Below are positions 7,885 through 45,898 of a stretch of 64,000 bases of DNA, in pieces. Below the pieces are notes generated by a model. The model did no database searches. It saw only the letters and a program-made list of their open reading frames with translations, and was not told where the DNA came from. This stretch comes from Mya arenaria (lineage: Eukaryota; Mollusca; Bivalvia; Myida; Myidae): NCBI RefSeq assembly GCF_026914265.1, contig NC_069132.1, positions 37,565,152-37,629,151 on the forward strand, given 5' to 3'. Position 1 is the first letter of the stretch, and each line of letters opens with the position of its first letter. A program made the translations under genes and the position numbers.

Positions 7885-8575
7885 GCTGTTTCTCCAGTAT
7901 GAAAAGGACCTCATTTAACTGTCTCTCCAGAATTACAAGTAGTTATGTACCTCATTTTTGTATCTCGAGTATAAAAAGGAACCATTTCACTGTCTCTCCA
8001 GTAATCCAAGGACTTCATTCAACTATCTCTCCAGAAAAACCAAGGACCACATTTCACTGTCTCTCCATTAATCCAAGGTCCCCACTTTACTGTCTCTCCA
8101 GTAATCCAACGTCCCCTCTTTACTGTCTCTCCAGTAATCCAAGATCCCCACTTTACTGTCTCTCCAGTAATCCAAGGTCCTCACTTTACTGTCTCTCCAG
8201 TAATCCAATGTCCTCACTTTACTGCCTCTCCAGTAATCCAAGGGCACCTTTTTACTGTCTCTCCAGTAACCCAAGATCCCCACTTTACTGTCTCTCCAGT
8301 AATCCAAGGTCCTCATTTTACTGTTTCTCCAGTAATACAAGGTCCCCATTTTACTGTCTCTCCAGTAATCCAAGGACCCCATTTTACTGTCTCTCCAGTA
8401 ATCCAAGGTCTCCGATTTACTGTCTCTCCAGTAATCCAAGATCCCCGATTTACTGTCTCTCCAGTAATCCAAGATCCCCACTTTACTGTCTCACCAGTAA
8501 TCCAAGGTCCCCATTTTACTGTCTCTCCAGTAATCCAAGGTCTCCGATTTACTGTCTCTCCAGTAATCCAAGAGC
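7885..8575 (-). repeat. 33-bp minisatellite in the POP5 3' end, about 20 units
   Basis: Roughly 20 tandem units of 33 bp, each with CTGTCTCTCCAGTAATCCAA on the plus strand. Units near 7885-8050 are more diverged than those at 8080-8575. Because 33 is divisible by 3 the array creates long repetitive frames on both strands; these are not genes. The highest-coordinate unit contains the last six codons and stop of POP5. On the minus strand each unit therefore repeats GGATTACTGGAGAGACAGTA, and the array continues as the start of the POP5 3' UTR. Confidence 0.9.
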
Positions 8576-11500
8576 CTTCCCACTGTCACTGCAGCTAGCC
8601 ACTATTAACTGATGCACCTTAAGTCTCTCTTCTGAAACAAAATCAGGGCAGAATCATATATCAAGTTAGTATTAATTTGCTGTGTTCAATTGAATAAAAC
8701 GTCTAGAATAGAACATTCCACTAGTTTTACTTGTTTCAGATGAACAAAAAAGATATTTTCCATACCATCGGGCCATTCAAAACAATATTAGTGTTGGAAT
8801 TGTTTAGGAGTACCAGTTAAAAGTACAAGAACAAAATTATATTGCGTCTACTGTGACCTACCAATTACTAGCGACTGCAAATTAACAGATTCGAGTTATC
8901 TCGTAGCAGAACAAAGCAGCTGGTCGCTTTGGTCGGATGGTAATCATGATTATCTTGACACATTTATTGGGGTATTAAAGCTGCACTCTCACAGATTGAA
9001 CGTTTTGACAACTTTTATTTTTTTTGTCTTGGAAAGAGCAAATGTTTGCGTAAATATCTGCAAACCAATGATATAAGACTGCTGACAAAAAATCAGATCG
9101 TAGATTTTCATATTTCTGTTCGAAAATTAATGTTTTATGCCTAACGGTTTAAGAGAAATGCATAAAACATCATTTTTGTACTTAAATATAAAAATCTGCG
9201 ATCTGATTGTTTGGCAGCAGTCTTATATAGCAGGTTTCTATGGATTTTGGCAAAAATTGGCTTGTTCCAAGACAAAAAATAAAAAAGTTGTCAAAACGTT
9301 CAATCTGTGAGAGTGCAGCTTTAAAGGATGTGTGATGACAAACATCCTTATTCTTATAACACCATTTTCATTGAAACCCTAATTAAAAACATAAAAAATG
9401 TGGATGGACAGACAGACGGATGGGCAGACACGGTGATAACTATAGGGCACCGCCATATGTTTGCTGAGCCCTTAATAATTTTTCAATTTCAACATAAAAC
9501 CCTTAAGAAATTAAATAAATAAATATGTACCTTCTGTTTTACATTCATACAGCATCAACGGAAGTTCTGTCTTATGATAACGTACAATAAACTTCATGCA
9601 GGAGCGAATCGTTCCTGTTAATATAAAATAAGCTTTACAAATACCTTATTATTTCAACAACTGTAATAATCATTCTATCAATCACTCAAGTTGGAGAGTG
9701 TGGTCTTATGGGGGAAAACCAGAGTTCCCAGGGAAAAGCCACCTAAAGTGCCCAAAAGACTAAAATCATTTACGCCCAGGCTGAAGATGGAATCTGGGAG
9801 ACCTTGAAGAGAAGCAAGTGCACTTACTAGAACTTTACCATGTGATAAACAGTACCAATTACTTTATACAACATACACAAATCTAGTTAACAAAAAGAGC
9901 GCCAACTATTGAAAATTAACGGTCCTATTTTTTAAGATACTAAGAGTGATGATAACCAGTTGAACGGTATAGTGGACACTGTAAATACAGTTTGATCCAT
10001 TTCTCTGGAGTGTCGGAGATGACATGGCTGGTTATCCCACCTGACTAAAGTTATTGATCAAACAACATATTGGACACTGTCGCCACAGGTGAAACTTCAA
10101 TAACAAATTAACACTTTACAAATAATCATATTTATTTCATGGTGTCTTTAATAATTATATTTCAAACCTCCTGAGATTCACCTTAACAAAAAATGCAACA
10201 GATCTTGCAGGTTGCTTGGTGTATGGTCCCTTTTGAGGTTTTTTTCCAGGCCTTGGCATAAGTGAGTATGGTTGGTTGTCACCAAGCCAGACAAGGGGTT
10301 TTCTTCTGGTATTCCCATTTAACTCACATAACAAGACCACACTCTAGAGCAACATGAGACATGGTAATGTATCTTTCTTAACAGTCATGTTAAATGGATA
10401 AACTAAATATGACCCCATTCCCAATGTTAAAACGTAGATTTTTTCCTGCAAATGTGAAAAATAAATTGATCTTTGACCTGGGTCTTGTGCATGTCATGCC
10501 ACTTATCGTGGTGAACCTTCACGCCAAGTTTTAAAAAAATCCTATATGGCATAGTCAAAATACAGCCCAGAAAAATTCAGTCTGGACAGACGCACTTACA
10601 CACACAAACACATAACTGCAATTGTGCCAACTATGTCTCGCTCACCGCAAGAGGGCTTTACAATGATTTAAATAAGGAATGATGTAAAATGTTTTATGAA
10701 TACCGGCCCTGGTCCCTAGGCTTATTCATGTATCGTACCTGCAAGATGGATTGTGTTTAAGAAAACATCCGCTCCTCCTAATTTCTTTACAAACGGCAGC
10801 GATGACTGTACCTTCTTGCACATGTCTCTTGCACACCGGATCATTACCAGGTTTGTTTCCTTGTTTAAGTAATGCACTATGAAAAGATAATTATATCATG
10901 TTAATGACACTTGATCAAATATTGGTCAAATATTGCTCATGCCAGTCGCCACAATTTTAATATTCAAACCAGTAAATTGGCAGTAATGCCAAAAATACTC
11001 TTGGGACGGTATTAATAATGCTTCTTAGTGAAAGTTTTCAAATTTTTAACAGCATTTTTTTTTATTTACTCTCATTTTTTTAACAAATTTATTCATAAGC
11101 CTTTATTATTTTGATTGTTTTCTTGTTTACATTCATTGCATTTTGGCGTAAATAAATGTTAATTTACATTAAATAAATAAAAGAAGTTTTATGATAAGGG
11201 GTTCAAACTCCTATTCAATATACATATTTAAAAATATATAAATTCTGATATTGTTCTAAATCTGATTTTAGCAAAATGTCAATTATAAACAATGTATACT
11301 AAGGCAAATAACTAAGCACATATTGCCCTATAAACATTGCTTATGGTAAAATCATATATCCACACAGCCTTTATAACCAATATTCACACATTGTGCCAGG
11401 CCCTTCAGTGACTTATATGGACACCACAAGATTCAATACTACCAACATGTTTGAAACACGTAATGTTTCAAAAACATATATCTTAGTTTAGCTTAGCTTA

Positions 11501-14500: not shown

Positions 14501-15021
14501 AACGCAATTCAACAAAAGGCTTAAAGGTTAAGTTATTCTTCTAATGGTGTTGGAGACCTTGCAGGCGTGAGGTTTTGTTGTCAGTTATCTAATTTTTTCT
14601 TGACTTTACAGGCATAGGTTTGCATTCTACTAATATCAAAATATATTTTTATGATTTTCAGTGCATTATTTTCATCAATAATGTTTTTAAAGTGTACAAT
14701 AGTTAAAAGATTAGTGTTTTCAGACACATTACCAGCAAAAAAGTGTCAAAACATGAGCTAGTCCCTTTTACCTGGGAGGAAAAGCGCACCTGGTGTGGCG
14801 CTCGAACCCACGACCGCTGGAACACTAGCACAACTGCGCTAATATATATATTATTATATCAATTGATCGAGTGCTCTCAAGCCTGAAACAATATCGCGAA
14901 ATTGTATGACTTTTTTATCTTTTACTCGTTCCTTTGATTTGTCAGCATGTCAATACAATTTTACAGAAAGTAAGAATTATTTTTCTTATAATTCTACCAA
15001 CCTGTTCTTAAATCTGACCAT
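8549..15021 (-). CDS. POP5: Ribonuclease P/MRP protein subunit POP5, 5 exons, 157 aa
   Basis: POP5 is a small protein subunit of RNase P (5' processing of pre-tRNA) and RNase MRP (pre-rRNA processing) in the nucleus. My exon model on the minus strand is 15002-15021, 11693-11841, 10739-10876, 9531-9614 and 8549-8631. All junctions are GT-AG and phases match (2, 1, 1, 1), giving 158 codons with the stop; the human protein has about 163 residues. Family hallmarks: start MVRFKNR then YILCKLEF; mid VHYLNKETNLVMIRC; then FLNTIHLAG joined to TIRSCMKFIVRYHK, the conserved NTLHxGGTIRxCQKFL block. The last exon ends KALGLLERQ and a TAA that lie inside the first unit of a 33-bp minisatellite. Intron 1 (about 3.2 kb) carries a 180-bp tandem array. 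The first exon faces the DMAC2-like gene with only 335 bp between start codons. Identification is firm; exon edges were set by eye. Confidence 0.9.
8979..9320. mobile_element. TTAA-site palindromic MITE, family A (full length)
   Basis: TTAA on both sides (8975-8978, 9321-9324). Ends are AGCTGCACTCTCACAG and its complement CTGTGAGAGTGCAGCT. The whole 342-bp body is one long imperfect palindrome, with AACGTTTTGACAACTTTT and GACAAAAAATCAGATCG-type blocks mirrored. It lies in POP5 intron 4 and is non-coding. Other copies in this window are at 17048, 36706, 47981, 53529, 54234, 60128 and 63643. Confidence 0.85.
9680..9835 (-). mobile_element. Degenerate SINE copy, central domain
   Basis: Read on the minus strand this resembles the body of the SINE at 58098-58357: GACCACACTCTCCAAC at the distal side and a GGTTTTCCCCCAT block. 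The tRNA head is not recognisable. It lies between POP5 exons 3 and 4. Confidence 0.45.
10238..10365 (+). mobile_element. SINE fragment sharing the conserved central domain
   Basis: Contains TTGTCACCAAGCCAGACAAG, then a TTTTCT..GGT..TCCC stretch and ACAAGACCACACTCT, matching the middle of the complete SINE at 58098-58357. The tRNA-like head and 3' tail are missing. It sits in POP5 intron 3. Confidence 0.6.
12050..13740. repeat. Tandem array of about 180-bp units in POP5 intron 1
   Basis: About nine units, each with TTGCTGAGATATTAACCTAT, CTTAACCAGAATTTCTAAGT, AATAATAAAGGGCAATTATT and GGTTGAGTACCATTGTAT. Measured period is 179-180 bp between two good copies (12981 and 13160). Units in 12900-13560 are nearly identical, while the first ones are more diverged and some are shorter. 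At 13735-13850 the last unit passes into a GC-rich cap (ACGCCAACGCCGACACCGCC) followed by TATAGCTCTCCTTATTCTTC. That cap is widespread next to such arrays in bivalves. The arrangement resembles the pearl/Helitron-associated elements of bivalves, which carry core satellite units; that assignment is an inference. Confidence 0.75.
14046..14323. mobile_element. Short inverted-repeat element with CCCCGGCGGGGG core
   Basis: Inverted ends ATACATGCCATAT (14047-14059) and ATATGGCATGTAT (about 14305-14318) enclose a C/G-rich start (CCCCCGGCGGGGGG) and repeated AAAATCCCCTGG strings. Matching pieces recur at 24870-25270, 25610-25700 and 26215-26262, so this is a short copy of a multi-copy family. The transposase type is unknown. 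Confidence 0.55.
14765..14850 (-). mobile_element. tRNA-like SINE head
   Basis: On the minus strand AGCGCAGTTGTGCTAGTG (box-A-like) is followed by GGTCGTGGGTTCGAGCGCCA (box-B). It is not flanked by a foldable acceptor stem, so a SINE remnant is likelier than a tRNA gene. Confidence 0.5.
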
Positions 15022-18300: not shown

Positions 18301-21300
18301 ACTGTACATGAATAAAACTATAACTCAGGTACTATCTAGTATTTTAAAAACCGATTGTACTATCGATTACTTGAGTGGAACCGATCATCGATAGTAAAAT
18401 TTTAACCAATTCCCAATACTAGGTAGGCTGCATTGGTGTAAATTCAACCAACAAGTGCGCTTATTGGTATGATGAAAGGTGGGACACTTTCAATTATGAA
18501 GCCCCTTAAAACTAACATTTCAGCGCACTGGGTAAAAACTTCACCTTTTTTCTTTGATTTGTATTTCAATATCAATTTGTTCAACTGATAAAGTCAAGCT
18601 TATTTGTATACAGAAGTATAATAATGTTTGTTGCAGTAATTACCTGTCCCAACATCTAATGATTATGGGTGTTACTGACATAAATGTTAGTGTTTCTATA
18701 TACTTGTATATAAAGCTCGTAGCTTTTTTAAAGAAGAAAAGCTTTATAACCATAAATGTAAGTGGCTTGTAAAACAAAAAACATAAAAATAATTTTTGTG
18801 AAAATTTCTAAAAATATCAAATGAATTTATATGCAGTCAGATATAAAATCTATGAAAAAAGAGATGTTAATTAATCTATGCAATATGTAAAGATGTTCAT
18901 TATTGTGTATTTAGATACTTGGAAGCGCGAGTGAACATGCTTGGTCCAGATATTGCCGCTGCCGAGATGATCCTGTTATGGAAGGGGAAGGTGAAGTTCG
19001 TAGACGATGAGATTTGGTACGAGGCTTACGAGAGCGGACAGTTGCCTTTACCAAAGCAGTATGATCCTGGATACCGGCTTGAGGCAGTCGATCTCTCTAA
19101 TACCAACTGGACATTATTGGCTATGGAACACTTCAGTAAGACCATTTAGGATATACTGAATAATGTTTATATTTTCTCTCTTGGTTTTTCACATTTAGGT
19201 TAAAACAAAATATTGAAGATATGTTGTCAGGGTTCTCAATAAGTTTCAGTTGAACCGTCTCAAATAGTAAAGTAACCGACCAGCTTCTACTTATTCTACT
19301 GAAAATTCATTTAGTTGTCCAAATTTGAACCGGCCCTATTGCCATTTGAACCGTCCATTTTGGCCGGCAGCCGGTTCTTATTGAGAACACTGTGTTGTAC
19401 TGACTGGATTGGGCTATTGTACAAGGCCTTTGAGGGTATATTATGTAGAAGGTAATTTTTGTTTTAGTTTATAACCAAGATATTTTTACTGAGTGAGTGC
19501 CAAAAGCTATATTTCGTGTGTGGCAAAGCCAAAATGAAGTAAATTAGTTTCTGTTGGTACTGACGAGTCGAAATTTATTACCATCTTACACTAAAATTAA
19601 CAATTTTGTAAACAGCACATTATTTCGGAAGTTATTATTAAAATGTTATCGTAGGAAAGCATATATATATATGCTCGTTGGATTGGTTCATTAGATTTAG
19701 GTAAAAAATTTAGTTGACTTATTGTGCTATGGAACAAGGTGTTTAAGGATATTCTATATAATGTTTATACTTTTTGATTTGGGTGTTTAGATTAAGGTTA
19801 ACAAAACATTATTGATAATTCTCTCTGATACCAGGTTGACTTCTTTGGCCATGAAACCTTTCCATAAATGCTTTCAAAGATAATGAAACATGATCTCCAT
19901 GATATTGACAATAGTTTTAACCACAGGTGACAGTAACAGTCATGGGTGGATAATTTTTTCTTATTGTTGCTGTTGTTGCATATATATATATATATATATA
20001 TATACATTATGTTATGAAGTTAAAAAACACTGTATCTGACTCTTTCTGCTTGTGTTAGATACTGTTGACGATAGCAATGGGTATTATACATGTCTCATTA
20101 CTCACCTTAAAATTTATGATACTAGTACACTCAAATATTAGAATAAAATAAGCACAGATTAAACTTGTTGAATTGCTGCAGATCAGCAGTGTGTAGGGCT
20201 TCCATTCAGAATTTAAAACTGGAAGTATGAACTTCCTTGGCCATCAATATTGGAAGTTTTTCACTGAAATCTGGAAGTTAAAGTTTCCCAGAATACAATT
20301 TTTTTCCCAGTATTTTTTAAAAAGTACATTAAAAATCAAACAATTACCTTGCCAAATTCACAGATACATGTTATAATAATTCATTTTACTTCAAGACTTA
20401 TTGAAATTATGGGCATAAAAGTAATATTGACACCAGGTTTTGATATTTTGAACTTCCAAGCTTTTGACTATGGGAGTTTTCTTCAAAATTATGGAAGTTT
20501 TTGTACTTCTAAGGAATTATGTTTGGAAGTTTTAACCCATTTCTAGGGAGTAATATACTTGCTTTAGCGGAAGCCCTGAGTGTGTACATGAATTAGAGTA
20601 GTAAAGATTTGAAAGATAACAACAATGATGTTTATGTTAACAATATTTTTCAATAGATAAAAGTTGACACTATTCTTATTTATTTAGTAAATTCCTCTAA
20701 CAATTGGCCGACTGTAATATCATATATTAACTAAACATGTCTATTTTCTTGATCAGGATACCTCGACCACCTCGTTTATGTTAACCTATCAGGAGCCCAG
20801 TTTGTGACAGACTGGTATGTGGAAAGACTGGTATCTCTGTGTCCTACAATCGAGTGTCTCGATCTTGAAGGGTGCCAGGGAATCACAGATATGACACTGG
20901 AGCTTGTATCAAAAATCAGGTTGCTTGAATGTATTCTTTGCTTAATTACTGTGAAATCATTAAATGATTTATATTCCTGAAATGAAAACAGACAATTTCA
21001 TGGTAACTTAAATTCGCGGATTTTCGCTTTTTTACAACAAATAACTGATACTGCAAAATCACCACGCGCCAAACTGGTGCTATGTTTTATCTACTTCACG
21101 CAGTTTATGACACTTCTATGGGACAATACACCAGTTAGCGCAGATAGCCATGTCAATTTATCGCTTGATCGGTAAATTCTTCCAGATCAAGGATATAAAA
21201 TAGTGAAGCCATTGAATGTCAATTAAGTGATTTTTTAAACTGTGAAAACACAGAGGGTTTGATTTTGAATGAACAATCCTAGAAGATACCAGTAGCCAAC

Positions 21301-22315
21301 TCACGAAATCCACGGACGTTAATGTCCCACGAATATTTATGATTTCACAGTATGCTGTTTTTTAGGGAAATCTTGTCAGTTCAATAACAAGATATATGGA
21401 CAAACTTTAGAAGGGTTTATTACAAATTCATTTAAAGGGTGATAATTGTCTAGTGGTATAGGTGTTCGCCTCTCACCCTAGAGAATGCTAGGCGATCCCC
21501 ACCAGAGGTTATTTTCTCACAGCCTCTCAAAATGAACATGAGTACCAGTTTCTACCCAGGAAACAGACTCAAGAGTGATTCTTTAAGCAATTGGCTTTTT
21601 CACAATCAAACTAAAAGAAATAAGTATAAACTCACAAATTAATTTGTCATTTTAATTGATTTAACATGTACAATAGGAGTCTCAAGTAATTGATTACTAC
21701 CGCCTGCAATACATAACCTACTTTATAACAAAAAAAAAACATATAATCTCATTCCATGTTTATGTTTCCATAAGGGTATCATGTGACTTGTTAGTATCTC
21801 TCCTTTGGTTTGGCATAATGAATGTTTATGTCAGGGTGGTTTGGCGTCACTTCAATTGATATCATTGAATTTTCATGTAAAGTTCTTAAACTGTGGTTTG
21901 GCGTCATTTCAAATAATATCATTGAATTTTTATGTAACTTAAACTGTGGATTGGCATATTTCAATAAATATAATTGAATTTGCATGTAACTTAAAACTGG
22001 TTTGGTGTCATTTTAATAAATATCAATTAATTTTCAGGTATCTTTAACTTTACCATTCAATTTTCTCTTTTCTGTTTTTTTTTCAGACACATGAAAGTCC
22101 TAAACATCAAAGACTGTACAAATATTAAGCAAGCGGATGTGTTCAGTGTATTCCTAGAAGACTTTTGCCCTGATATACAGATTCTTGGGCTGGACAGTTT
22201 GCCAAAACTCAAAACATCGCTCCATGAATATGAACACAGTAACAGTCGATTTTTGAATCTGGGTGAAAGTGCTAGACATCACAATGAAGAAAAAAAGTGT
22301 GAAATGATAGGTTGA
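15357..22315 (+). CDS. DMAC2: DMAC2/ATP5SL-like distal membrane-arm assembly protein, 6 exons, 284 aa
   Basis: DMAC2 (ATP5SL) helps assemble the distal membrane arm of mitochondrial respiratory complex I; relatives include ATP synthase subunit s (DMAC2L). My exons are 15357-15374, 16456-16624, 17576-17630, 18915-19135, 20757-20919 and 22087-22315, all GT-AG with matching phases (0, 1, 2, 1, 2), 285 codons with stop; human DMAC2 has about 257 residues. The first exon is tiny, MFTVAK before GTAAGT. It is followed by SLPRSCRNLQKTQN, an arginine-rich stretch suited to mitochondrial import. Family landmarks: YLEARVNMLGP, KGKVKFVDDEIW, LEAVDLSN, VTDWYVERL, LDLEGCQGITD and EDFCPDIQILGLD, i.e. the degenerate C-terminal leucine-rich repeats. 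Exon 3 (GIKGMLLNKTRKAYEKEQ) is short but both phases fit. The tail after residue about 250 is hydrophilic and not conserved. Introns host several transposons. DMAC2L is the main alternative, but the C-terminal LRR block fits DMAC2 better. Confidence 0.85.
15523..15622 (+). mobile_element. Truncated family C inverted-repeat element
   Basis: Starts TTA then TGCACCAGTCAATTGTAACC and the GC-rich CAGGTCCGGGG block that open the complete copies at 57495 and 62839. It breaks off after about 100 bp in a GCAGGCGGCGG stretch. It lies in DMAC2-like intron 1. Confidence 0.6.
15610..16045 (-). mobile_element. Fossil LTR retrotransposon remnant (possible)
   Basis: Two related stretches of about 100 bp (15625-15715 and 15945-16045) lie about 320 bp apart in direct order. 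Both contain GCGTTCATAG, a TATAACATTCC block and TTGGTTGGTAATATGCAAA. Between them is TGGTGGCAGCGGTGGGAT (about 15820-15838), a string resembling the primer-binding region next to LTRs of Gypsy-like elements. The piece is short, broken and has no gag or pol. It may be a partial LTR pair or simply a tandem repeat. Old fossil; strand uncertain. Confidence 0.35.
17048..17120 (+). mobile_element. Family A MITE, left end only
   Basis: TTAA then AGCTGCACTATCACAG and AACGTTTTGACAACTTTTTT, then loss of similarity after about 75 bp. This is a truncated copy in DMAC2-like intron 2. Confidence 0.65.
18045..18425. mobile_element. AT-rich repeat with multiple ATCGATTATAATCGAT motifs
   Basis: CCGATGATCGATTATAATAG near the left side and ACCGATCATCGATAG near the right side are partly inverted. 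Between them lie further copies of TCGATTAT/ATAATCGA. A short frame beginning MADESQNEQEN sits inside but resembles nothing I know. It is probably a non-autonomous transposon in DMAC2-like intron 3; ends not fixed. Confidence 0.4.
19228..19392. mobile_element. Short hAT-like MITE, CAGGGTTCTCAATAAG ends
   Basis: Inverted termini CAGGGTTCTCAATAAG and CTTATTGAGAACACTG, flanked by TGTTGT on both sides (19222-19227 and 19393-19398). At 165 bp it is non-coding. It lies in DMAC2-like intron 4. The duplication length seen (6 bp) is slightly short for classic hAT (8 bp). Confidence 0.7.
19979..20004. repeat. (TA)n microsatellite
   Basis: About 13 TA units in DMAC2-like intron 4. Confidence 0.95.
20194..20578. 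mobile_element. hAT-like non-autonomous element, AGGGCTTCC ends
   Basis: Starts TAGGGCTTCC and ends GGAAGCCCTG, flanked by AGTGTG on both sides (20188-20193, 20579-20584). Inside are several subrepeats of TGGAAGTTTT or AACTTCC. No coding capacity. Lies in DMAC2-like intron 4, 172 bp before exon 5. Confidence 0.65.
20949..21350. mobile_element. TA-site MITE, CTGTGAAATCATTAAAT ends
   Basis: TA duplicated at 20947-20948 and 21351-21352. Ends CTGTGAAATCATTAAAT and ATTTATGATTTCACAG are inverted. Second-tier inverted blocks (AATTCGCGG and CCACGGACGTTAAT) lie inside. A TA target suggests mobilisation by a Tc1/mariner-type transposase. In DMAC2-like intron 5. Confidence 0.7.
21432..21600 (+). mobile_element. 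tRNA-derived SINE
   Basis: Box A in ATTGTCTAGTGGTATAGGTG and a degenerate box B in GGCGATCCCCACC, followed by a non-tRNA body with CAGTTTCTACCCAGGAAACA. Copy is old. DMAC2-like intron 5. Confidence 0.5.
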
Positions 22316-23960: not shown

Positions 23961-23999
23961 CAGGATTTAATGGGTTTTTTACGCACACATCAACATCCT

Positions 24000-30660: not shown

Positions 30661-30664
30661 ATGA

Positions 30665-32005: not shown

Positions 32006-34045
32006 TCAGATATCCGGAGTGACGGTTCCCGCGCCATCCCGTTCGTCCACCAGCGCCATCTGGGTTTGGGGTTCCCCGGTAACAGCCAACACTTCTGCAT
32101 CCAGCTCGTGTTCATTGTGTTCAATCAGTTCATTTTTCTCTTTGTTACTACCTGGTTTTCGAGTTTGTTTTTCGTGATCGTCATTGTCATTTTCGTCTGT
32201 TGTGTTTTCAACGACGTAGGTTTTACCTTTTTCGGCCTTGTCAACATCAGACAAGGCGTCGTCGGGCGTTCTTCCTGAGAACTCGGACAATATCTGGTCG
32301 GGGTTCTCTTCAGGGGGTTTCATGTCAAGGTCGATATATACGTTCTGTATTCTACCATGGATCACTTCAATATTTGGCTTCAGAGTCTTAAGCTCTTCTA
32401 ATACTTGGAGAAATCCTTGATCGACACAAGTAGTCTGTAAAAGATAAGAGTATATAATGAAAGACTATAAGTATCATCCTTGGTCGAAAGTGTAAGATCG
32501 TAGGGTTTTATGCGGAAACTAGGTTTACCGAGTTTCCGCAAAACACCCTGCGCGAGGGTCGGGATGAACCTATCTCACACGAGCGGCTATGCTAGATGCT
32601 TTTTCTCCCACCTCAGTTAAACAAGATTAAGTGAAAATGTATTTTTTACCGGAACTCTTTTGTGCTTAGTGAAAATAATTGCGCATGGACATGTGATAAT
32701 TCGTGGTTGTCATGGATATGCGCGCAGTGATTCAGATTATGCTAATAGTCAACTCGGTCTTTAAAGAGTTCTAAGGAGAGTGAAGCATTATTTCTTGAAA
32801 AGTGCGTGAAAACTGTTTTATGGTGACATTTGAAGCGAGAAATAATTAATAAGCGTTCTAAAAATTGCCACAAGACAAGGTTTCCATGATGCTACAGACG
32901 ACAGTCTTCAACAAGGGAGGTAATTACAATGTGGTGACCATTAAAAAGGAGTTCCATACGGGCATTTTATCTTCGCCCGTGGGCAAGATAAGAATTTCTA
33001 GCATGGTTAAATTATTGGATCTACTTATCTGAGGTGGGAGAAATAATGATCAACAAGTCCCAGTTATTGATCTTTTTCTACCCTCCTCTCCCACCTTAGA
33101 TATGGTGTCGGCCCACAACGAAATGCTTCCGGGTCGTTGTATCCCTTCAAGTAGTACATAAAAATGTTTCTCCCCACTTATATAGCATTTGATGATATTT
33201 TTAATGACATTGCAATCTTGTATGTATTTTCAAGTTTAAACATGTTTTATATCAAATTTGAAGACCTAAATGTGGTTTTGAATGATATTTTGCAGGACGT
33301 TGATATGGTTTTCTGCTGTTAAATCAACAAAGTGTTCATACTATGTGAGTAAAAAAATGTTAAGCTTTTTTACCCTGCAAATTCATAATAAAGTAGTGAA
33401 CTGGGGTAATTTTACATATAACAAAGAAGATAATCTCGCTGTGGACCGAAAACATAATTCGTCATCATAGCGCAAAATCTGAATAACTGCATATAGAAAT
33501 AGAATCGGATATTTGAGTTCTTGCACTAAGGTGACGATGTGTGAGGGCAAGGTAGGAGTTGCGTTTGTCCCATCGATTCAAGGAAAAATCTTGTGTTGCA
33601 TTAAACTCCAAAAATATTGCACCTACACTCATGGAACTTCATAGGAATGTTTGTTAGTATGCCGAGTAACGACTTGTTTGACCTTTAACTAAGTTTAATA
33701 ATCACGGCATTTGACCAAGAAAATAATGGTGTGAAAAAATCGAGAGAATGGGATAAACGTCTCCGAAACCGAAACAATTTAAAACTAAAGAACAGCACAT
33801 TGATTTATGTATATACAGTACTGCTGTTATATCCAGACAATACGCAACGATTTCCACGATCTATGATCTCTTGTTTAAATACTTACTCCGAAGTCGATCT
33901 TTTCCATCGAGGAGGTTTCTAAGGCTAACACCGTCTGCAGAACATCAATGGCCCCCAACGCGTTTATCAAATTGTCACCGAGCTGCAAGTAGAATTTATT
34001 TCAAAATGAACTGCAACCAAATTCCGTCTTTTAATTAACATGGAA

Positions 34046-34097
<52 letters not shown>

Positions 34098-34152
34098 ATT
34101 TAGAATTCTTATTGCCATGATTGCTCAAATCATGGCAATTAGAACTCTAAAT

Positions 34153-34208
<56 letters not shown>

Positions 34209-37200
34209 TTAATTTATTTAGTAAATATTGAACTTTCTTTATTTACTGAGTTATCTGCGAAGGAGCAAATAACTTGTCATCATTTGTAAAAGATAATTTG
34301 TCTTCAAATTACTATCTATTTAAGTGGTCTACGTCTACAAATTACTTTTGATTCTAAATCTATGACATATTGTATACAGTCGAACCTCGTTGGCTCGACC
34401 TCGCTTGGCTCGACCTCGCTTGGCTGTAATTCCTTCAAGGTTTGAACTAGATGTAAAGGATCGATTTCTTTGAAATGAATGTAAAAACTCCCGCCTGGCT
34501 CGAATTTTTCGAGGCTCGCGGTATTTTCGCTGTTCCCAGAGAGTTTTACCAAAGAGGGTTCAACTGTAACTTTTTAACATTATGGATGGTCCACAAAAGA
34601 TACAATTTTACAGGCCCCCGTATTTTCTCGAACACACAAGTTCCTTATAACAGGACCAAGCTCATCATGTTATTTTCTCCTTTAACAGAGTATTAAGGAT
34701 TTAATAAGAACATTCTTTGAGGATAATCACGCAATCGTAAAAATCGGCCATCTCCGGCAAGCTTCGTCAATTATGTTGGATACTAGACAAGGTGTTCAGA
34801 TTGGATGATCGCGATAAACATTTTGTGTCATATCAAACTTAATTAGTAATTTGGTTAAGTAAGATCCTTATTATTCTAAAGATTTTTCGAGAAAATGGGG
34901 CAATGCATACAAACCCGAAGCACTTGTAAAGTGTCGTTTTGGGCGAGCTGCTTGACCATTACTTTGAGGTCAAAATTGGTGATTCTGTTTTTGGACATGT
35001 CCAGTTCGAGGAGAGTTCTGTTGGTTGCGAGCGCCTGGCCCATGAAGGCAGTCCCTTCTGTCCCGAACCCATTGAAACTGACGTCTAATTTCTTCAGTCC
35101 CACATTCTCCTGGGTAAATAAGTATTTTGAATAAAAATTAAATATATGGAAAACAGTAACTGCACGCGCTGCGCAAGAAGTTGAAATTGTACACGAACGC
35201 AAAGCGCTAGTTATGTGCCATATTCTCTACCTGTTACGTACCATGTCAGTGATATATCTTGGTGCAGTTTACTGCCTTCTAAAAAACGTTGCCCCTAATG
35301 AAAATATGCTCATTTTCCTTAAAAAGTCCTATTATTCCCTATTTGATAACAAAAGATTCCGTTAATGAAAAAAGCTATGTATGACTTTATAAATTAACAA
35401 AATATCGAAAAAGACTATCTCATTTACTTTATACTGGTGTATGCATAAAAACGTGAATGGATGTATAATTGCTAAAGTAATTCCATAAAAGAAATCATTG
35501 CATGTTGTTAAACTTTCCATTCAATAAGCAGCGACTACGAACATTAGAATAGTGTTGTGTTTTATCCGCATGGTACAGGTTCAACGAATTCATTAGTTGC
35601 CGTTTTGATATGAAAGTTGTTTGACTAGCAATATTGCTTAAAGATGCACTATCACTCAAAAATAATATTCAACACATGTAATTCAGTTGTTTATATATAT
35701 ATCAAAAAGGATGAACAAATGTCGAAAACAATTGATCTTATGGAGAATACCGAGTTTACTTTGAAAGAAATGTGCAGAAAACACGGTATTGCTACCTTAT
35801 GAGACCATAGAAGATCGCAGTAAATCTTTTAGCATTCACCATTCGTTTAATATTTTTGCGTTTTTAGCCATCAAATACACGGCTGTAATATTGTTAGTAG
35901 TAATTAATAGTTCTGTAAGTGCACTATTTAGTAAGTATTTGAGAGTGTATCGCTTAAAATTTGTGTTCGTTTAACATGTGTATGTATTGATTTTGAATAA
36001 GAGTGTCACTTTAATTATCATCGACTTCGTGATAGACCAATTCGACGAGAAAGGTATCCGGTTTTGCACAAGACCATGCCATCTCGCAAATGATACTTGA
36101 GAAATAGAAGACCAAAAACAAGTCTATGTTCAGGGGCCTACCTTTATCCCAATAGCAAACTCCAAAGCGCCCCTTTTACGTATGTGGTTCCAACTGACGT
36201 CAAGCCGTTCCAATGTTTCGTTAGATGCTGCAATCGAGATAAATGTAAATGTCACAAGCGAATCCAAGGGGGGGGGGGGGAACTTATTTTAATAAAGGAG
36301 AAAAAAGTAATAGCATACGCACAAAATGCGCTACTTAGGACTATAAATTGTTAAGATTTTCTTGGGGGAATACCCCGAACCTCCACTGCCAACACTTGAA
36401 ACTAAATGAATAACGGTTCTGAGGTAGAGGCGGAAGTCAAAAGGTTACGCCCTGAAGTTACGCCCCCACAAACGTCAAATATTGTAACCGCCCCTGAGTG
36501 TTATAACATATTAAGTGCATAGAGTCTTATTTAGTTAACCATTTTATAAATGTAAAAAAGCTATACATATTATATACTGTTGACCATCTATGTGAATTAC
36601 TAGGAAAGTGAGAGCAATTCGCTTATAAGACATCTTCATAAATGTCACTGCAGGGAGAACCAAGATCATTTGATAAAATATATTACATAATATTATACTA
36701 CTTAAATCTGCACTCTCACAGATTGACAGATGACATTTTTTTGTCAAGTTTTTGTTTCTGAATCAGCTGATTTTGGTATCAATGCCTTTAATACAGTCAT
36801 CTAAGATAACTCACAATAAAACAGACCTAAATTGTTTGGGGAAACTGCCTTTCTCTTAAAGCGTTTGGAACGCTTTAAGCCATAAAACATCATTTTTGAA
36901 CGTATTAAAATATGAAAAACTGCGATCTGATCTTTGGACAGCTGTCTAGAATCACTGGTTTCAATACATTTACACAAAAAATGGCTCATTTGAAGACAAG
37001 AATAGTAAGAGTGCAGCTATAATTTTGATAGGATCACGTGAATACAACAAGAACCATGTTAGCATTAGGTGATGCTTAGGTCATGGTTCAACCTGTATAG
37101 CAAACCGAAAGTTAAACTAGGTCGAAAGTGAAAGTTCATCATTTGTGTTAATAAAAATCAATATTTTGTTTTGTCTATCACTTTTTTTAGATCAGTTTTT

Positions 37201-40200
37201 TTTACAGGATCCAAACATGTTCGACAACTTCGTGTCATTTACAAAATGATTGATTTAGAATGTACAAAAATGTTACCATTGTTAAGAAGATATACAGAAA
37301 AGATATTTTAAGATCGATTCTTTTTGAGATCAAATAGCTCCAGTGGTACTATATATAGCTAACATTTCAAAATACGTCTCAGTGTTATCTATGTACGACT
37401 GGGAAATCCAGTTAAATATATTTTAAGACATTATGGGACATTCAACGAAGTAAAGCCAAAATGCAGCCAGCCAATGGGCGTGGACAGACCTTGGTAAACT
37501 CTAAAACACCAACAGACCGAGATGAAAAGCTCTTACATAGCGCCGCCCCGAAAGCACACCCAGCCGCCTCTTCAAACTCATTTCCAGAGACCACTAGTTC
37601 CTTTAGTGTACGGTTCTCCTAAAAAGGGAATTGTGCATAGTAAATATCAACTTTGCAGTTTATTTCAGTCAACATTTTAAAGAAATGGATGATACGGATG
37701 ATACTGTTCTAAAAAAATGGCTAAATTTCTTGTAGTTGATATTTACCGAACTCACATGAATGAAATCGGCATTTATTGAACCTATATGTTTAAAGTTGAT
37801 ATTTACCGATCTAATGTGTGAACAGCTGATATTTACTGAACTTATATGTTTAAGTTGATATTTACTGAACGTATATGTTTAAGTTAATATTTACTGAACT
37901 TTTATGTTTAAGTTGATATGCACTCAACTTATATGTGTACAGTTGCTATTTACTGATGTCTTAAGTTGATAATTACTGAACATGTGTTAAGTTGATATTG
38001 ATCGTATTTATATGCATAAAGTTTAAATTTACCGTACTGATATGTGTTAAGTTGATAGCTACTGTATTTATATGTTTACATTTTATTTACCGAACTTATA
38101 CATGTCAAGTTGATGTTTACTACATTTTTATGTGTAAAGATGGAATTTACTATAAGTATATGTTTAAGTTGATATTTATCCCAATTATATGTGTAAAGGT
38201 CATATTTTCCTTAATTATATGTGTAAAGTTGATATTTACCTTTATCATATGCGCAAAGTACTCGGCATCTGCATCTTTGAAGCCATTTCCTGTAAAAAAA
38301 GACTTAACATTAATATTAATATGTGTCTTAATCAGGGACCTTAGTCAGAAATATTTGTTCGGTTTCCAAACTTTTATATTTTAGCTAGTGAAATTCAAAA
38401 CCACATATGTGATAGCATTTTGTATGAGAGTGAATATAACAAGTCTAAGGATATGTGAATCGGTGAAAATAACAAAAAAGTAGATCAATCCTATTCAGTC
38501 GTTTTTTTAAATTAAATCACAAATCATTCAGCTTCAAAACCTATAAATATGGAAAGCAGCCAATGGTCTGAGATGGTATAACCATATTAGATTTACTGTC
38601 ATGCGTAAATTAAAAAAAATAAGACTGAGTAGGCACTTCCGATTTGGTGTACTTTGCCTTACAACGAGTATTATAAAAATGAAAGAGCAAATCTTATTTT
38701 TAAACATTAAGACAATTAAGAAGAAAAAATATGACGTACTATTTGGGTCAAAGTCCAACTTTCCTAGTTGACAACGAAACATACAGGTGGAATTCTTTTT
38801 TTTTTTTTTTGGTTGACTACTAGTACAATATTGGACTTTGTGTCCAAATTGTATGCCGTAGAAAGTACGTACGAGATGCATGGAGCGTGTCAATGCGATG
38901 GTTGGCCAACATGAGTTGTTCTAGAAGGACAGCGCCCCGACTCCCCAATTTGTTGTCACTGATGTTCTAAAATTTAACAGTATTTATTTGAATTCATTTT
39001 TAACCAAGACCTATACAAATATAATACCAACTCGTAGCGTTTACATGTATATACACCATGCATGCATTATATCACTACACGCTGTATATACATACGTCCA
39101 TGTTTTTTATGAAAAAACAAAACAAAAATTGCTTTGAATAAAACAATTTAGTTGCTTTCTAACAGGACATTTACTTCTAAACGAGATATATGCTGCATTA
39201 CAAGGTAGTTGCTTCCTATGGAGATATTTGCCTCCTTAGGATATATTTGTTCACTAACGATATTATTAAATTTTTGTGTTTAGTGAGAGCGAAATATTTG
39301 CGTTCTGACTATGTATTTGCTTCACTACCATTCATAAAGTTGCATCCTAAACAGACCATTTGCTACCTTTCTAACAATATATTTGCTTCCTCACGATATA
39401 TTTGCTACGAGTTAATTACTTCCTTACGAGATATTCGCTTACGTAAGAGATAATATTAATAGCTTCCTTACGAGATATTTGCTTTCGAACGAGATAATAG
39501 CATCCTTACGAGATATTTGCTTACGTACGAGATAATAGCTTCCTTACGAGATATTTGCTTACGAACGAGATAATAGCTTCCTTATGAGATATTCGCTTAC
39601 ATACGAAATTATAGCTTCCTTACGAGATATTTGCTTACGAACGAGATAATAACTTCCTTACGAGATATTTGCTTACGTACGAAATAGCTTCTTCTTTACG
39701 AGATACATGTATTTGCATCCTTACGAGGTACTTGATTCCTTTTGAGACACTCGCCTTTCTAGGGAAAAGATACTTCCTTGCGAGATATTTGTTTACCAAC
39801 TAATCATTCGCATCCTTGCGAAACATATAATTACATTATTACTGTATACTATATTCCTATAATTTATTAGAGATGGAGATAAATGCTTCAAAGAATATTT
39901 GGAGTCTTGAATGTGTTCTTATACGGACACATTGGTACAAATGATGTCATTTTCGAGAGGCCAAGCGAACGTACCCATAATGTGACTCGAACCCATAATC
40001 CCTAAAGTGAGGCGCGGTCACAGCCATGTAAATGGTTGCTTCCTTACGAGGTAGTTGCTTCCTAAAAAGAGATGTGTTTCCTTAAGCGACAGTTGCCTCC
40101 TTACTAAGCAAGTTCTTACGAGATATTTGCTTCCTGACGAAATATTTGTTTCCGTATGAGATAATTGCTTCAATAAGAGATATAATTGCTTTCATATGAG

Positions 40201-43200
40201 ATAGTTGCTTCCTAACGATAAATTATTTGCCTCCATATGAGATAGTTGCTTCAATATCATATAGTTGTTTCAATATAAGATGGTTGCTTCCATAACGAGA
40301 TATTTGCCTCCATATGAGATAGTTGCATCCTAACGAGATATTTGCTTCCTAACGAGATATTTGCCTCCATATGAGATAGTTGCCTCCATATGAGATAGTT
40401 GCATCCTAACGAGATATTTGCTTCCTAACGAGATATTTGCTTCCATAACGAGATATTTGCTTCCATATGAGATATTTGCCTCCATATGAGATAGTTGCCT
40501 CCATATGAGATAGTTGCATCCTAACGAGATATTTGCATCCTAACGAGATATTTGCTTCCATAACGAGATATTTGCCTCCATATGAGATAGTTGCATCCTA
40601 ACGAGATAGTCGCATCCTAACGAGATATTTGCTTCCTAACGAGATATTTGCTTCCTAACGAAATATTTGCTTCCTAACGAGATAGTTGCCTCCATATGAG
40701 ATAGTTACGTCCTAACGAGATATTTGCTTCCTAACGAGATAGTTGCTTCCGTATGAGATAGTTGCGTCCTAACGAGATATTTGCGTCCTAACGAGGTATT
40801 TGCCTCCATATGTGATAGATGCATCCTAACGCGATATTTGCATCCTAACGAGATATTTGCATCCTAACGAGATATTTGCCTCCATATGAGATAGTTGCTT
40901 CCATATGAGATAGTTGCGTCCTAACGAGATATTTGCATCCATATGAGATAGTTGCTTCCATATGAGATAGTTGCTTCCATATGAGATAGTTGCGTCCTAA
41001 CGAGATATTTGCTTTCTAGCGAGACATTTGCCTCCTAACGAGATAGTTGCGTCCTAACGAGACATTTGCCTCCTAACGAGATAGTTGCTTCCATATGAGA
41101 TAGTTGCGTCCTAACGAGATATTTGCTTCCTAACGAGATAGTTGCTTCCATATGAGATAGTTGCTTCCATATGAGATAGTTGCGTCCTAACGAGATATTT
41201 GCTTTCTAGCGAGACATTTGCCTCCTAACGAGATATTTGCCTCCATATGAAATATTTGCTTCCTAACGAGATAGTTGCCTCCATATGAGATAGTTACGTC
41301 CTAACGAGATATTTGCTTCCTAACGAGATAGTTGCTTCCGTATGAGATAGTTGCGTCCTAACGAGGTATTTGCCTCCATATGTGATAGATGCATCCTAAC
41401 GCGATATTTGCATCCTAACGAGATATTTGCATCCTAACGAGATATTTACCTCCATATGAGATAGTTGCTTCCATATGAGATAGTTGCATCCTAACGAGAT
41501 ATTTGCATCCATATGAGATAGTTGCTTCCATATGAGATAGTTGCTTCCATATGAGATAGTTGCGTCCTAACGAGATATTTGCTTTCTAGCGAGACATTTG
41601 CCTCCTAACGAGATAGTTGCGTCCTAACGAGACATTTGCCTCCTAACGAGATAGTTGCTTCCATATGAGATAGTTGCGTCCTAACGAGATAGTTGCCTCC
41701 ATATGAGATAGTTACGTCCTAACGCGATATTTGCTTCCTAAAGAGATATTTGCCAACATATGCGATAGTTACGTCCTAAAGAGATAGTTGCCTCCATGTG
41801 AGATAGATGCGTTCTTACGCGACATTTGCTTCCTAAAGAGATATTTGCCAACCTATGCGATAGTTACGTCCTAACGAGATATTTGCTTCCTAACGAGATA
41901 TTTGCCCCGTATGAGATAAAAGCGTCCTAACGATATATTTGCTTCCTAACGAGATATTTGCCTCCATATGAGATAGTTGCGTCCTAACGAGATATATGCT
42001 TTCTAACGAGATAGTTGCCTCCATATGAGATAGATGCGTCCTCACGCGATATTTGCTTTCTAACGAGAAATATGCCTCCATATGAGATAGTTGAGTCCTA
42101 ACGAGACATTTGCCTCCTAACGAGATAGTTGCGTCCTAATGAGATATTTGCCTCCTAACGAGACATTTGCCCCCATATGAGATAGTTGCTTCCATATGAG
42201 ATAGTTGCCTCCATATGAGATAGTTGCGTCCTAACGAGATAGTTGCCTCCATATGAGATAGTTGCGTCCTAACGAGATAGTTGCTTCCATATGAGATAGT
42301 TGCGTCCTAACGAGATAGTTGCCTCCATATGAGATAGTTGCGTCCTAACGCGATATTTGCTTCCTAAAGAGATATTTGCCAACATATGAGATAGTTACGT
42401 CCTAAAGAGATATTTGCCAACATATGCGATAGTTACGTCCTAAAGAGATAGTTGCCTCCATATGAGATAGATGCGTTCTTACGCGACATTTGCTTGCTAA
42501 AGAGATATTTGCCAACATATGCGATAGTTACGTCCTAACGAGAAATTTGCCCCATATGAGATAAAAGCGTCCTAACGATATATTTGCTTCCTAACGAGAT
42601 ATTTGCCTCCATATGAGATAGTTGCGTCCTAACGAGATATATGCTTTCTAACGAGATAGTTGCCTCCATATGAGATAGATGCGTCCTAACGCGATATTTG
42701 CTTTCTAACGAGAAATATGCCTCCATATGAGATAGTTGCTTCCATATGAGATAGTTGCGTCCTAACGAGATATATGCTTTCTAACGAGATAGTTGCCTCC
42801 ATATGAGATAGTTGCGTCCTAACGAGATGTTTGCCTCCATAAGACATAGTTGCGTCCTTACGAGATATTTGCTTCCATAACGAGATATTTGTCCCCATAT
42901 GAGATAGTTGCGTCCTTACGAGATCTTTGCTTTCCATAAGAAATAGTTGCTTCCTAACGAGATATTTGCGTCCTTACGAGAACTTTGCTTCCTTGCGAGA
43001 TAGTTGCTTCTTCACGCAATATTTGCTTCCTTACGCAATAGATGCTTCCTAACGAGATAGATGTTTCCTTACTAAATAGCTGCTTCCTTACGAGATGTGT
43101 GATAAAGTTGTGGTCGACCAGTGCCTCTTTGATGCTGGACAAGCCAATGGACGTGATGGAATTCCCTTCTATGTCAAGGAACGATATAGTCGTGTCCAGC

Positions 43201-45898
43201 TGTAAATGTCACAATGAAATGTGTTCATTTAAAACATTAAAGAAAATGGAAAACATGGACAAATTATTGGTAGTTCACATATATAAATATGTTACTACAT
43301 ATCATCGTAATATCATTTTAAAGTACCCAATTAAGATCGAAAATAACCTTTTTTCTGATTAACTTTGATATTAGCAAAAATAACAGTTTTAAGTAAGTTA
43401 GATCGGTACGGTGCTGAAAAAACCGCTCCGCAATTAGGCCCGACACCATTTTTCAAACGCACGGAATGTACCATTCGTTGGAATATTCCTGTCATGCGAT
43501 ATAGTTTTCAGTATGCGAAACATGTTCACACGGAAACTGATTGCTCTTGACAGAGCGAATTTCCCATAAACATGCACATGCCATCTCATACAATTACTTT
43601 TTTATTATTCAATAAAGCTTGAACTTAAAAGAACACATCAAAGCGTCGCTACGAAGAAAAAAAGCAAGTCGTGCATTTAAAAAGAAACATTAAAAACAAC
43701 TTGAGAAAAACTTACAAGCAGGGCGGCCGAGAGGGCTCTAGCGCCGTTAGGTCCCATGTTATAGTGCTGTAGACACAGGGCGGTGCTCGTGGGCTTCCGG
43801 ACGTACGCCGACACGGGGATCACTTGCAGGCGCTCGCATTCCTTCAGATAGAGCTTCATTTTGACCTCATGGGGTTCCATGTACTTTCGGGGCGGGTCTA
43901 TCGTTGGAAAAATTAGTAGAATGATGATTAAAATCATTAAATCTTTCCGAGACAAAGCAAGTTTGTTTCTATTCTGTTCATGTGATAACTCTTACTATAA
44001 GCATTGCCAATCATTCAACGTATACATGTTAAGAAATCACACTGCTCAATAAATGCCACAACGAGGGTAGATTACGTAGGAAGTTTCTAATATTGGGGAC
44101 AGAGAACACCAATATCAATATCCATTTATTATATATGCAATGTAACATCCAGAGTCGGTACTCATTAAACGCCTTAAGTAATTTCCTAACTTAAGTCATT
44201 TTCTTAAGTTAAGCATCTCACCTATAAAATGATTTAATCGCTTCATAATATTTTAAATTATTTGTGTCCATTGATTTTATTCAAAATACATTGTAGAAAA
44301 CACTTCATTCAAATACAATACTCAGTGTACAGTATAATTGACGCAATGCATCTTACAATACAGTACACTCAATATACCTTACAGCACAGTAAAAAAAGAA
44401 GATGTATATTTCAGAACAGTCGACTTAGTGAACCATACAGTACAGTTGACCGTCAACGCATCTCACAATAAAGTAGATACAATAGCCCTTACAGTACAGT
44501 GAGCAATCGATGTACAATCCAGTACAGTAAACTCAATGTGCAATTTGCCTTACAATTAAGTATACTCAATAATATACTTCACACTAAAGTAGTCTCAATG
44601 TACCTCACAATACAGTAGTCTCAATGTACCTCACAAAACAGTAGTCTCAATGTACCTCACAAAACAGTAGTCTCAATGTACCTCACAATACAGTAGACTA
44701 AATGTACCTCACAAAACAGTAGTCTCAATGTTCCTCACAATACAGTAGACTCACAATGTACCTCACAAAACAGTAGTCTCAATGTACCTCACAATACAGT
44801 AGACTAAATGTACCTCACAAAACAGTAGACTCAGTGTACCTCACAATACAGTAGACTCAGTGTACCTCACAATACAGTAGTCTCAGTGTACCTCACAATA
44901 CAGTAGTCTCAAGGTACCTCACAAAACAGTAGACTCAGCGTACCTCACAATGCAGTAGACTCAGCGTACCTCACAATGCAGTAGACTCACAATATTGTAG
45001 TCTCAATGTACCTTACAATACAGAAGACTCAATGTACCTCACAATGCAGTAGACTCAATGTACCTCACAATACAGTAGTCTCAGTGTACCTCACAATACA
45101 GAAGTCTCAATGTACCTCACAATACAGTAGTCTCAAGGTACCTCACAAAACAGTAGACTCAGCGTACCTCACAATGCAGTAGACTCAGCGTACCTCACAA
45201 TGCAGTAGACTCACAATATTGTAGTCTCAATGTACCTTACAATACAGAAGACTCAATGTACCTCACAATACAGTAGTCTCAGTGTACCTCACAATACAGT
45301 AGTCTCAGTGTACCTCACAATACAGTAGTCTCAAGGTACCTCACAAAACAGTAGACTCAGCGTACCTCACAATGCAGTAGACTCAGTGTACCTCACAATA
45401 CAGTAGACTCAGTGTACCTCACAATACAGTAGTCTCAGTGTACCTCACAATACAGTAGTCTCAAGGTACCTCACAAAACAGTAGACTCAGCGTACCTCAC
45501 AAAACAGTAGACTCAGCGTACCTCACAATGCAGTAGACTCACAATATTGTAGTCTCAATGTACCTTACAATACAGAAGTCTCAATGTACCTCACAATACA
45601 GTAGACTCGATGTACCTTTCAATACAGTAGAGTAGACTCAATGTACCTAACAATCATGGCAATAGAAACAGTGTACCTCACACTACAATAGACTCAATGT
45701 ACCATACAGTAAGTAAACACTCGATGTTCAGTCCAGTACAGTAAACTTAGTGTTCTGTAATGCATGATTGTATGCATCAGTTAGTAAAACAACTCAGATA
45801 CATTCAAGTACAGTAACATATATCAATGTACCTTCCAGCAAAGTCTCCTCCCTCAACATCCGAGGCCGCAGGCTTATTGTCTCTGCCTTTATCGACAT
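32006..45898 (-). CDS. LRRC74A/B-like leucine-rich-repeat protein, 10 coding exons, 462 aa
   Basis: Exons on the minus strand: 45832-45898, 43716-43897, 43092-43199, 38873-38966, 38240-38289, 37537-37618, 36142-36227, 34915-35109, 33887-33982 and 32006-32434. All are GT-AG and phases match throughout, giving 463 codons with stop; human LRRC74A has about 490 residues. Starts MSIKAETISLRPRM. LRRC74 hallmark near the N terminus: KMKLYLKECERLQVIPVS, then LQHYNMGPNGARALSAAL. About nine ribonuclease-inhibitor-type repeats follow, e.g. ITHLNISDNKLGSRGAVLL, LERLDVSWNHIRKRGALEF, LKKLDVSFNGFGTEGTAFM and LLELDMSKNRITNFDLKVM. FLQVLEELKTLKPNIEVIHG matches the family's end of the LRR domain. The last exon adds an acidic, disordered tail (TTDENDNDDHEKQ) absent from the family as I know it. 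Function of LRRC74 proteins is poorly known. Three introns consist mostly of minisatellites that begin at the donor site. An alternative first exon lies at 52961-53219. Confidence 0.85.
32510..33105. repeat. Diverged repeat with GAGGTGGGAGAAA inverted motifs
   Basis: TTTCTCCCACCTCAG at about 32609 and CTGAGGTGGGAGAAA at 33031 are inverted. Nearby GAACCTATCTCACACGAGCGG and GGGTCGGGATGAACC recur at 49880-50310. The CCGAGTTTCCGCAAAACACC block also recurs there. This is probably one non-autonomous transposon family; ends are not fixed. Lies in the last intron of the LRRC74-like gene. Confidence 0.5.
34039..34221. repeat. Large palindrome with (AAAT)n arms
   Basis: About 14 AAAT units, then ATATTTAGAATTCTTATTGC, then a four-base centre (GCTC) and the near-perfect complement ending in about 17 ATTT units. 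The inner arms differ only by small changes, so single strands could form a hairpin with an arm of about 85 bp. Intronic in the LRRC74-like gene. Confidence 0.85.
34377..34566. mobile_element. TA-site MITE, CAGTCGAACCTCGTTGGCTC ends
   Basis: TA on both sides (34375-34376, 34567-34568), CAGTCGAACCTCGTTGGCTC at the left and GAGGGTTCAACTG at the right. Same family as 46362-46536. Ends of the type CAGTYGAACC with a TA target fit pogo/Tigger-like elements. Intronic in the LRRC74-like gene. Confidence 0.7.
35642..36010 (+). mobile_element. TTAA-site family B element, full length
   Basis: TTAA at 35638-35641 and 36011-36014. Left end AGATGCACTATCACTC, right end GAATAAGAGTGTCACT. Contains CCAAAAAGGATGAA-type and ACCGAGTTTACTTTGAAAG landmarks. 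It lies in an LRRC74-like intron, 131 bp from the exon at 36142. Confidence 0.75.
36706..37018. mobile_element. Family A MITE, diverged copy
   Basis: TTAA then ATCTGCACTCTCACAG on the left and AAGAGTGCAGCT on the right. The central palindrome (CTTAAAGCGTTTGGAACGCTTTAAG) is well kept. The right TTAA has decayed to TATAA. In an LRRC74-like intron. Confidence 0.75.
37728..38239 (-). repeat. 29-30 bp minisatellite starting at a splice donor
   Basis: About 17 diverged units with TTCAGTAAATATCAACTTAA and ACATATAA on the minus strand. The first unit is the LRRC74-like donor itself: exon end CATATGATAAAG, then GTAAATATCAACTT. The array fills about 510 of the 621 bp of this intron and stops about 110 bp before the next exon. 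Confidence 0.85.
39172..43091 (-). repeat. 19-bp minisatellite array, 3.9 kb, starting at a splice donor
   Basis: About 190 units of 19 bp (minus-strand core ATATCTCGTTAGGAAGC). The first unit is the donor of the LRRC74-like exon ending at 43092: CACATCTC, then GTAAGGAAGC. Units with CTCGTAAGG cluster near both ends (39380-39800, 42850-43091), while the middle is dominated by CTCGTTAGG and CTCATATGG variants arranged in longer blocks. One block of about 200 bp at 41890-42081 is repeated at 42535-42726. A non-repeat piece at about 39840-40030 interrupts it and contains a tRNA-like box B (GGGTTCGAGTCAC, minus). The array fills almost the whole 4.1-kb intron, leaving about 200 bp before the next exon. 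Confidence 0.9.
44240..45831 (-). repeat. 26-bp minisatellite array starting at a splice donor
   Basis: About 55-60 units of 26 bp (plus strand TACCTCACAATACAGTAG then ACTCAGTG or TCTCAATG). On the minus strand units read GAGGTACATTGAG, and the array begins at the donor of the first LRRC74-like exon (GGAAG, then GTACATTGA at 45831). Blocks of about 200-220 bp are themselves repeated (44908, 45132, 45330). Units fade toward 44240, leaving about 340 bp before the next exon. Confidence 0.88.

Follow-up and report, generated by a model that had tools for sequence, protein, structure and literature searches.

Tandem arrays at the exon ends of two genes

The DNA considered here is a window of 64,000 nucleotides from a bivalve, the soft-shell clam Mya arenaria (RefSeq assembly GCF_026914265.1, contig NC_069132.1, positions 37,565,152 to 37,629,151 of the forward strand), in which two minus-strand genes, one LRRC74B-like and the other POP5, carry long minisatellites at the 3' ends of exons; positions below count from the first letter of the window. 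The LRRC74B-like gene comprises 10 exons between 45898 and 32006, with 9 introns, and its spliced model equals the Mya leucine-rich repeat-containing protein 74B-like isoform X2 across all 462 residues. A second Mya LRRC74B record, of 376 amino acids, has exons 1-5 in common with this model and is without exons 6 and 7; it also enters exon 10 further along (region 32006-37618). The 5 coding exons of POP5 lie from 15021 to 8549 and are separated by 4 introns, and the spliced POP5 model is identical at 157/157 residues to the Mya ribonuclease P/MRP subunit POP5-like protein. An original prediction, made from the letters of the sequence, described four arrays with unrelated units of 33, 29, 19 and 26 bp that start at exon 3' edges and run in the direction of transcription. 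All four are recovered by Tandem Repeats Finder (TRF), exon bases do lie within the repeat units at each of the four sites, and the longest word common to any two of the arrays is of 7 bases. Each array is at an exon end, and three of them (introns 1, 3 and 5 of the LRRC74B-like gene) are at donors; since the fourth sits at the POP5 stop codon, the common theme is exon 3' ends and not donors.

At the three donors the 26, 19 and 30 bp units of introns 1, 3 and 5 contain the donor and, respectively, 13, 5 and as many as 20 exon bases, so that bases from both sides of one junction are held in the unit, which is the mark of the arrays called mirages in amphioxus. For each of the 17 introns in the window with both ends placed (17 donors and 17 acceptors), the 30-mer from −15 to +15 was aligned locally to the remainder of the intron, and its best score set against 200 dinucleotide shuffles of that 30-mer. 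LRRC74B donors 1, 3 and 5 exceeded every shuffle (p 0.005; scores 29, 30 and 32, null means 17.0, 16.0 and 16.4); the remaining 14 of the 17 donors did not (lowest p 0.114), nor did any of the 17 acceptors, the best of which was that of POP5 intron 4 (p 0.015). A far copy at +1441 matches the intron 1 donor 30-mer across 13 bases of exon and 9 of intron (19/22), and it is this local match that reaches the exon 1 donor, the alignment to the 26-bp unit failing to do so. The alignment to the 30-bp unit in intron 5 enters exon 5 by up to 20 bases and the strict local match by 1 exon base, and in intron 3, about 90% of whose 4125 bp is array, 5 exon bases are inside the first unit.

The longest exact matches across the junction to the arrays themselves are of 12, 15 and 16 bp for introns 1, 3 and 5, lengths equalled by 4, 0 and 0 of 2538 control GT sites, which were not limited to real donors with their common consensus. 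Other real donors match at most 9 bp in the intron 1 array and 8 bp in the intron 5 array, and the intron 3 array is also matched by the donors of exon 4 (12 bp) and exon 5 (11 bp). When consensus units are used instead, the exact match is 11 bp for the 26-bp donor (4/2545 controls), 15 bp for the 30-bp donor (0/2545) and just 7 bp for the 19-bp donor (5/2545). As a separate observation, the exon 4 donor (38873) has no array and still has 12 bp in common with the 19-bp array of intron 3, which 4 of the 2538 controls equal; the shared word, by eye, is ATCTCGTACGTA in the far block (about 39380-39700). To judge from protein records, Mya uses the exon-side copy of each arrayed donor.

The array at POP5 spans coding sequence and a stop codon, and is not a splice-junction mirage. 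Its 33-bp unit holds the last seven POP5 codons and the stop, 24 bases, CTTGGATTACTGGAGAGACAG-TAA, which read LGLLERQ-stop, and the Mya record ends at LGLLERQ, that is at the first stop, inside the first unit; anchoring of this array at a donor was rejected on the grounds that the record terminates there. POP5 of the zebra mussel (Dreissena), 68% identical, likewise has LGLLER at its end (C-terminus ADSGRTLGLLERSTTSQ), and because of this the copied codons may be taken as old coding sequence, and the order of origin as one from exon to array: the POP5 array would derive from the exon and not the exon from the array. The same order is supported by REETLLEDPP of LRRC74B-like exon 1, which is common to Mya and Dreissena. 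The short POP5 exon alone, as a query, gave nothing in Pfam or PDB searches. Since the earliest signals of the polyadenylation type (AATAAA/ATTAAA) after the stop, at 7602 and 7493, are beyond the array, it probably lies in the 3' untranslated region (UTR) of the POP5 mRNA.

Table 1. Exon ends, arrays and inverted unit, in window positions.
Feature	Position	Strand	TRF limits	Basis or detail
LRRC74B-like exon 1, start codon to donor AAG/GTACAT	45832..45898	-		spliced model identical to Mya protein
Intron 1, 26-bp array	44360..45831	-	44571-45703	TRF core, worn units to about +1460 from donor
LRRC74B-like exon 3, end ...ACACATCTC/GTAAGG	43092..43199	-		spliced model, Mya protein match
Intron 3, 19-bp array	39130..43096	-	40035-43096; related block 39379-39705	two blocks, 40035-43096 and about 39130-39790
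LRRC74B-like exon 5, end ...CATATGATAAAG/GTAAAT	38240..38289	-		spliced model, Mya protein match
Intron 5, 29/30-bp array	37734..38259	-	37734-38240	
Inverted array unit, 22-36 nt before intron 5 end	37640..37654	+		exact 15-nt reverse complement of donor +1 to +15
POP5 last coding exon, final 24 nt (LGLLERQ + TAA) within first 33-bp unit	8549..8631	-		Mya record, unit alignment
33-bp array, POP5 C-terminal codons to downstream of stop	7885..8572	-	7982-8572	18 units within TRF limits; further units worn

Extent and internal order of the arrays

By similarity in 60-bp windows introns 1, 3 and 5 consist mostly of array-like sequence. Intron 3 is array-like from +1 to +3060 and then, with a dip, from about +3300 to +3960 of its 4125 bp, intron 5 from upstream of the donor as far as about +500 of 621, and the POP5 array from within the exon to about 690 bp beyond the stop; in intron 1 array-like sequence is lacking at +1 to +90, begins at about +91 and continues, with dips, to +1500. 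As a route of intron growth, which had been put forward as possibly general for the lineage, the arrays make a fair case in the LRRC74B-like gene.

The arrays had also been thought most diverged or absent close to the next acceptor, and this stands weakly. Inside TRF limits the identity to consensus falls from exon side to far side in POP5 (from 0.95 to 0.89 over 18 units) and, also over 18 units, in intron 5 (from 0.86 to 0.77), is flat in intron 3 (0.83 to 0.84) and rises in intron 1 (0.84 to 0.94). Wider regions taken by fifths in the same direction, which include some non-array sequence, give 0.94 to 0.78 for POP5, 0.81 to 0.73 for intron 3, 0.82 to 0.77 for intron 5 and 0.77 to 0.81 for intron 1, and in these regions three arrays match the consensus less well at their edges than in between (p 0.0024, 0.0002 and 0.015 by permutation), intron 5 being the exception (p 0.61). 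Worn edges were rejected as a real property of the arrays, the effect being gone once the comparison was limited to the TRF bounds. The copies most like the junction are distant from it in all three introns: at +1441 in intron 1 (3 mismatches in 22), at +3463, +3539 and +3615 in intron 3 (0 mismatches in 15) and at +424 in intron 5 (4 mismatches in 24). The exon-matching GTAAGG of intron 3 has six occurrences in the initial 250 bp, counting the donor, and nine beyond 2750 bp, and is absent from the ten 250-bp bins between these ends, where GTTAGG prevails; all 15 sit at most 231 bp from the donor or more than 2980 bp from it. Such a pattern is suggestive of old seed-like copies kept at the array ends around an interior that has turned over.

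Insertion at donors of fragments of a dispersed satellite or transposon is hardly credible as the source of the arrays. A weak RVT_1 match does occur in the window (18.2 bits, under the curated cut-off of 29.6), but the four units have no relation to one another, and among the best eight matches of each none was a convincing copy elsewhere in the window, for which reason this origin was dismissed. The best match outside its own array was an inverted copy in intron 5 (E 0.004), and the next a 13-base match (E 0.053). The inverted unit in intron 5 pairs in a predicted fold with donor bases 38225-38239, at a mean probability of 0.37.

Two plus-strand genes supplied further junctions, a kelch gene with 2 introns, whose last exon is a 100% match over 90% of the query to a Mya protein, and a leucine-rich repeat gene at about 18914-22315 with 2 complete introns placed by eye, which is putatively DMAC2/ATP5S-like. 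The statement that other arrays of the window do not touch exons held for coding exons as called; a 52-bp array (21836-22049) stops 37 bp short of an acceptor of the DMAC2-like gene, and the acceptor is not included. An intergenic 15-bp array at 48992-49741 is open in several frames and has a strong strand skew. Lastly, a minus-strand open frame of 440 residues at 1607-2929 is probably a single-exon gene, without a Pfam match (E up to 0.01) or a PDB match (E up to 0.1).

Origin of the arrays

The reading preferred here, at a probability of about two in three, is that the four arrays are minisatellites seeded at exon edges, of one kind with the mirages of amphioxus, and that they need no process directed at donors; the exon bases within the units at all four sites support it. 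First, slippage or end joining would have made a short tandem duplication across a boundary between coding and dispensable sequence, taking exon tail, donor and intron head in LRRC74B-like introns 1, 3 and 5, and C-terminal codons, stop and downstream sequence in POP5. The duplication would have been tolerated because the upstream copy still closed the exon and carried the donor or stop, the extra copy being spliced out or left untranslated, and slippage and unequal exchange would then have raised the number to about 18-180 units. Part of the interior may since have been turned over, the copies likest to the seed persisting at the far ends, although the pattern is suggestive only. The POP5 array looks like the same process acting at a stop codon.

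Coincidence with selective attention, arrays being common in the genome and some bound to overlap exon ends, seems quite unlikely. It would draw on the many arrays of the window (56 overlapping TRF rows), on the ease with which long arrays extend to intron ends and on a sample of 17 introns only, but it does not sit well with exon bases being inside the repeating unit and not just adjoining it, nor with three donors and 0/17 acceptors exceeding all shuffles.

Several results weigh against the seeded-edge origin. Under even seeding the chance that at least three of the five intronic arrays (those of LRRC74B introns 1, 3 and 5, of POP5 intron 1, with a 179-bp unit, and of DMAC2-like intron 2, with a 52-bp unit) span a donor is P 0.0046 for array-free introns and 0.0002 with present-day intron lengths, in a test that is post hoc, takes ancestral intron lengths set by hand and omits arrays of fewer than 3 copies and microsatellites. 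Exon 3' ends exceed 5' ends by 4:0 (two-sided 0.125, not significant), and this count leans toward the idea of the original prediction, tolerance alone having no obvious prediction of it. In intron 1 the first 90 bp past the donor are poorly preserved, the clean array beginning about 90-120 bp past it, and the 60-bp window across the donor reaches a z of 1.4 only. Edge wear inside TRF limits was seen in 0/4 arrays (p 0.27-0.74), and its disappearance slightly lowered confidence in the preferred origin.

A transcription- or splicing-linked process such as R-loop slippage or donor repair, starting arrays at exon 3' ends and extending them with transcription, would suit the placing of all four arrays at such ends and the improbability of three donor arrays in five under even seeding. 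Against it, the stop codon of POP5 is not a splice site, and the excess of donor over acceptor arrays, which has the predicted direction, is 3:0 in a single gene and not significant (two-sided sign test 0.25). Because both array-bearing genes are on the minus strand, transcription direction is inseparable from genome strand. In amphioxus an acceptor-side array exists. Transcript-strand G skew is strong in just two of the four units (+0.40 and +0.47); the 19-bp unit, in two versions, has 0.00 to +0.14 and the 30/29-bp unit −0.43 to −0.33, and R-loop-prone G skew was rejected as a common cause on that count. A linked process is not needed and is doubtful as the source of these arrays. It is unlikely, too, that bivalves have a directional process placing minisatellites preferentially at exon 3' edges (donors and stops), as one of the main ways in which introns and 3' UTRs grow and with inverted units pairing donor and acceptor in some introns.

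A function for the arrays, as tandem donor decoys or sponges tuning splicing, for instance by donor-acceptor pairing in intron 5, is very improbable. Sites with GT scoring at least as high as the true donor number 19 in intron 1 and 14 in intron 3, as scored with a generic donor matrix, and the predicted pairing in intron 5 would fit. But these numbers amount to 9.8 and 3.4 per kb, and comparable densities occur without a donor array in DMAC2-like intron 2 (12.0/kb) and kelch intron 2 (8.0/kb); further, the interior of intron 3 has drifted toward weaker donor sequence, and an inverted unit is present in one of the three introns.

Relation to known boundary-spanning repeats

Tandem duplications at exon-intron boundaries are described as mirages in the Adh3, globin (BflGb6 and BflGb9) and troponin C genes of amphioxus, with similar repeats of PGBD5 compared to them, and mirage units are of 10-160 bp, occur on either side of exons and apparently leave splicing undisturbed (PMC3087553, PMC3902484). 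The LRRC74B arrays are alike in being minisatellite-like tandem units across an exon-intron boundary, although the host is here a bivalve and not a cephalochordate. In copy number the BflGb6 mirage, of 3-6 units, differs from Mya intron 3 with up to about 180; it is also acceptor-side, whereas 0 acceptor cases were seen among the 17 introns of the Mya window, and, unlike the amphioxus mirages, the POP5 array spans a stop codon and not a splice site. Cluster boundaries of the globin mirages are reported to escape homogenisation (PMC3087553), and the seed-like ends of the intron 3 repeats in Mya may be of this kind. In intron gain by tandem duplication, as in a potato RdRp gene, a duplication likewise crosses an exon-intron boundary (PMC4974935), but Mya shows no sign of a new intron, the extra copies being within existing introns or after the stop. 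Tandem arrays within introns are known also from intron 3 of the abalone TSSK1-like gene, where a minisatellite with a 27-bp unit varies between individuals (PMC6905558), and from the first introns of earthworm metallothionein genes (PMC12783039), whether they span an exon edge not being stated in the text available. In the literature searched, with most subscription papers outside its reach, no boundary-spanning array in a mollusc was found. Overall the set of arrays is real and fairly striking, of a known kind, and within that literature new for a bivalve.

If a clam, too, has boundary-seeded minisatellites, they are no peculiarity of amphioxus, and this form of intron lengthening could be counted in every well-assembled genome. 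The array at the POP5 stop suggests that such arrays may be limited by selective tolerance, wherever a coding edge lies beside dispensable sequence, and not by splicing itself, in which case arrays should be found across every type of coding edge, in proportion to how well each tolerates them.

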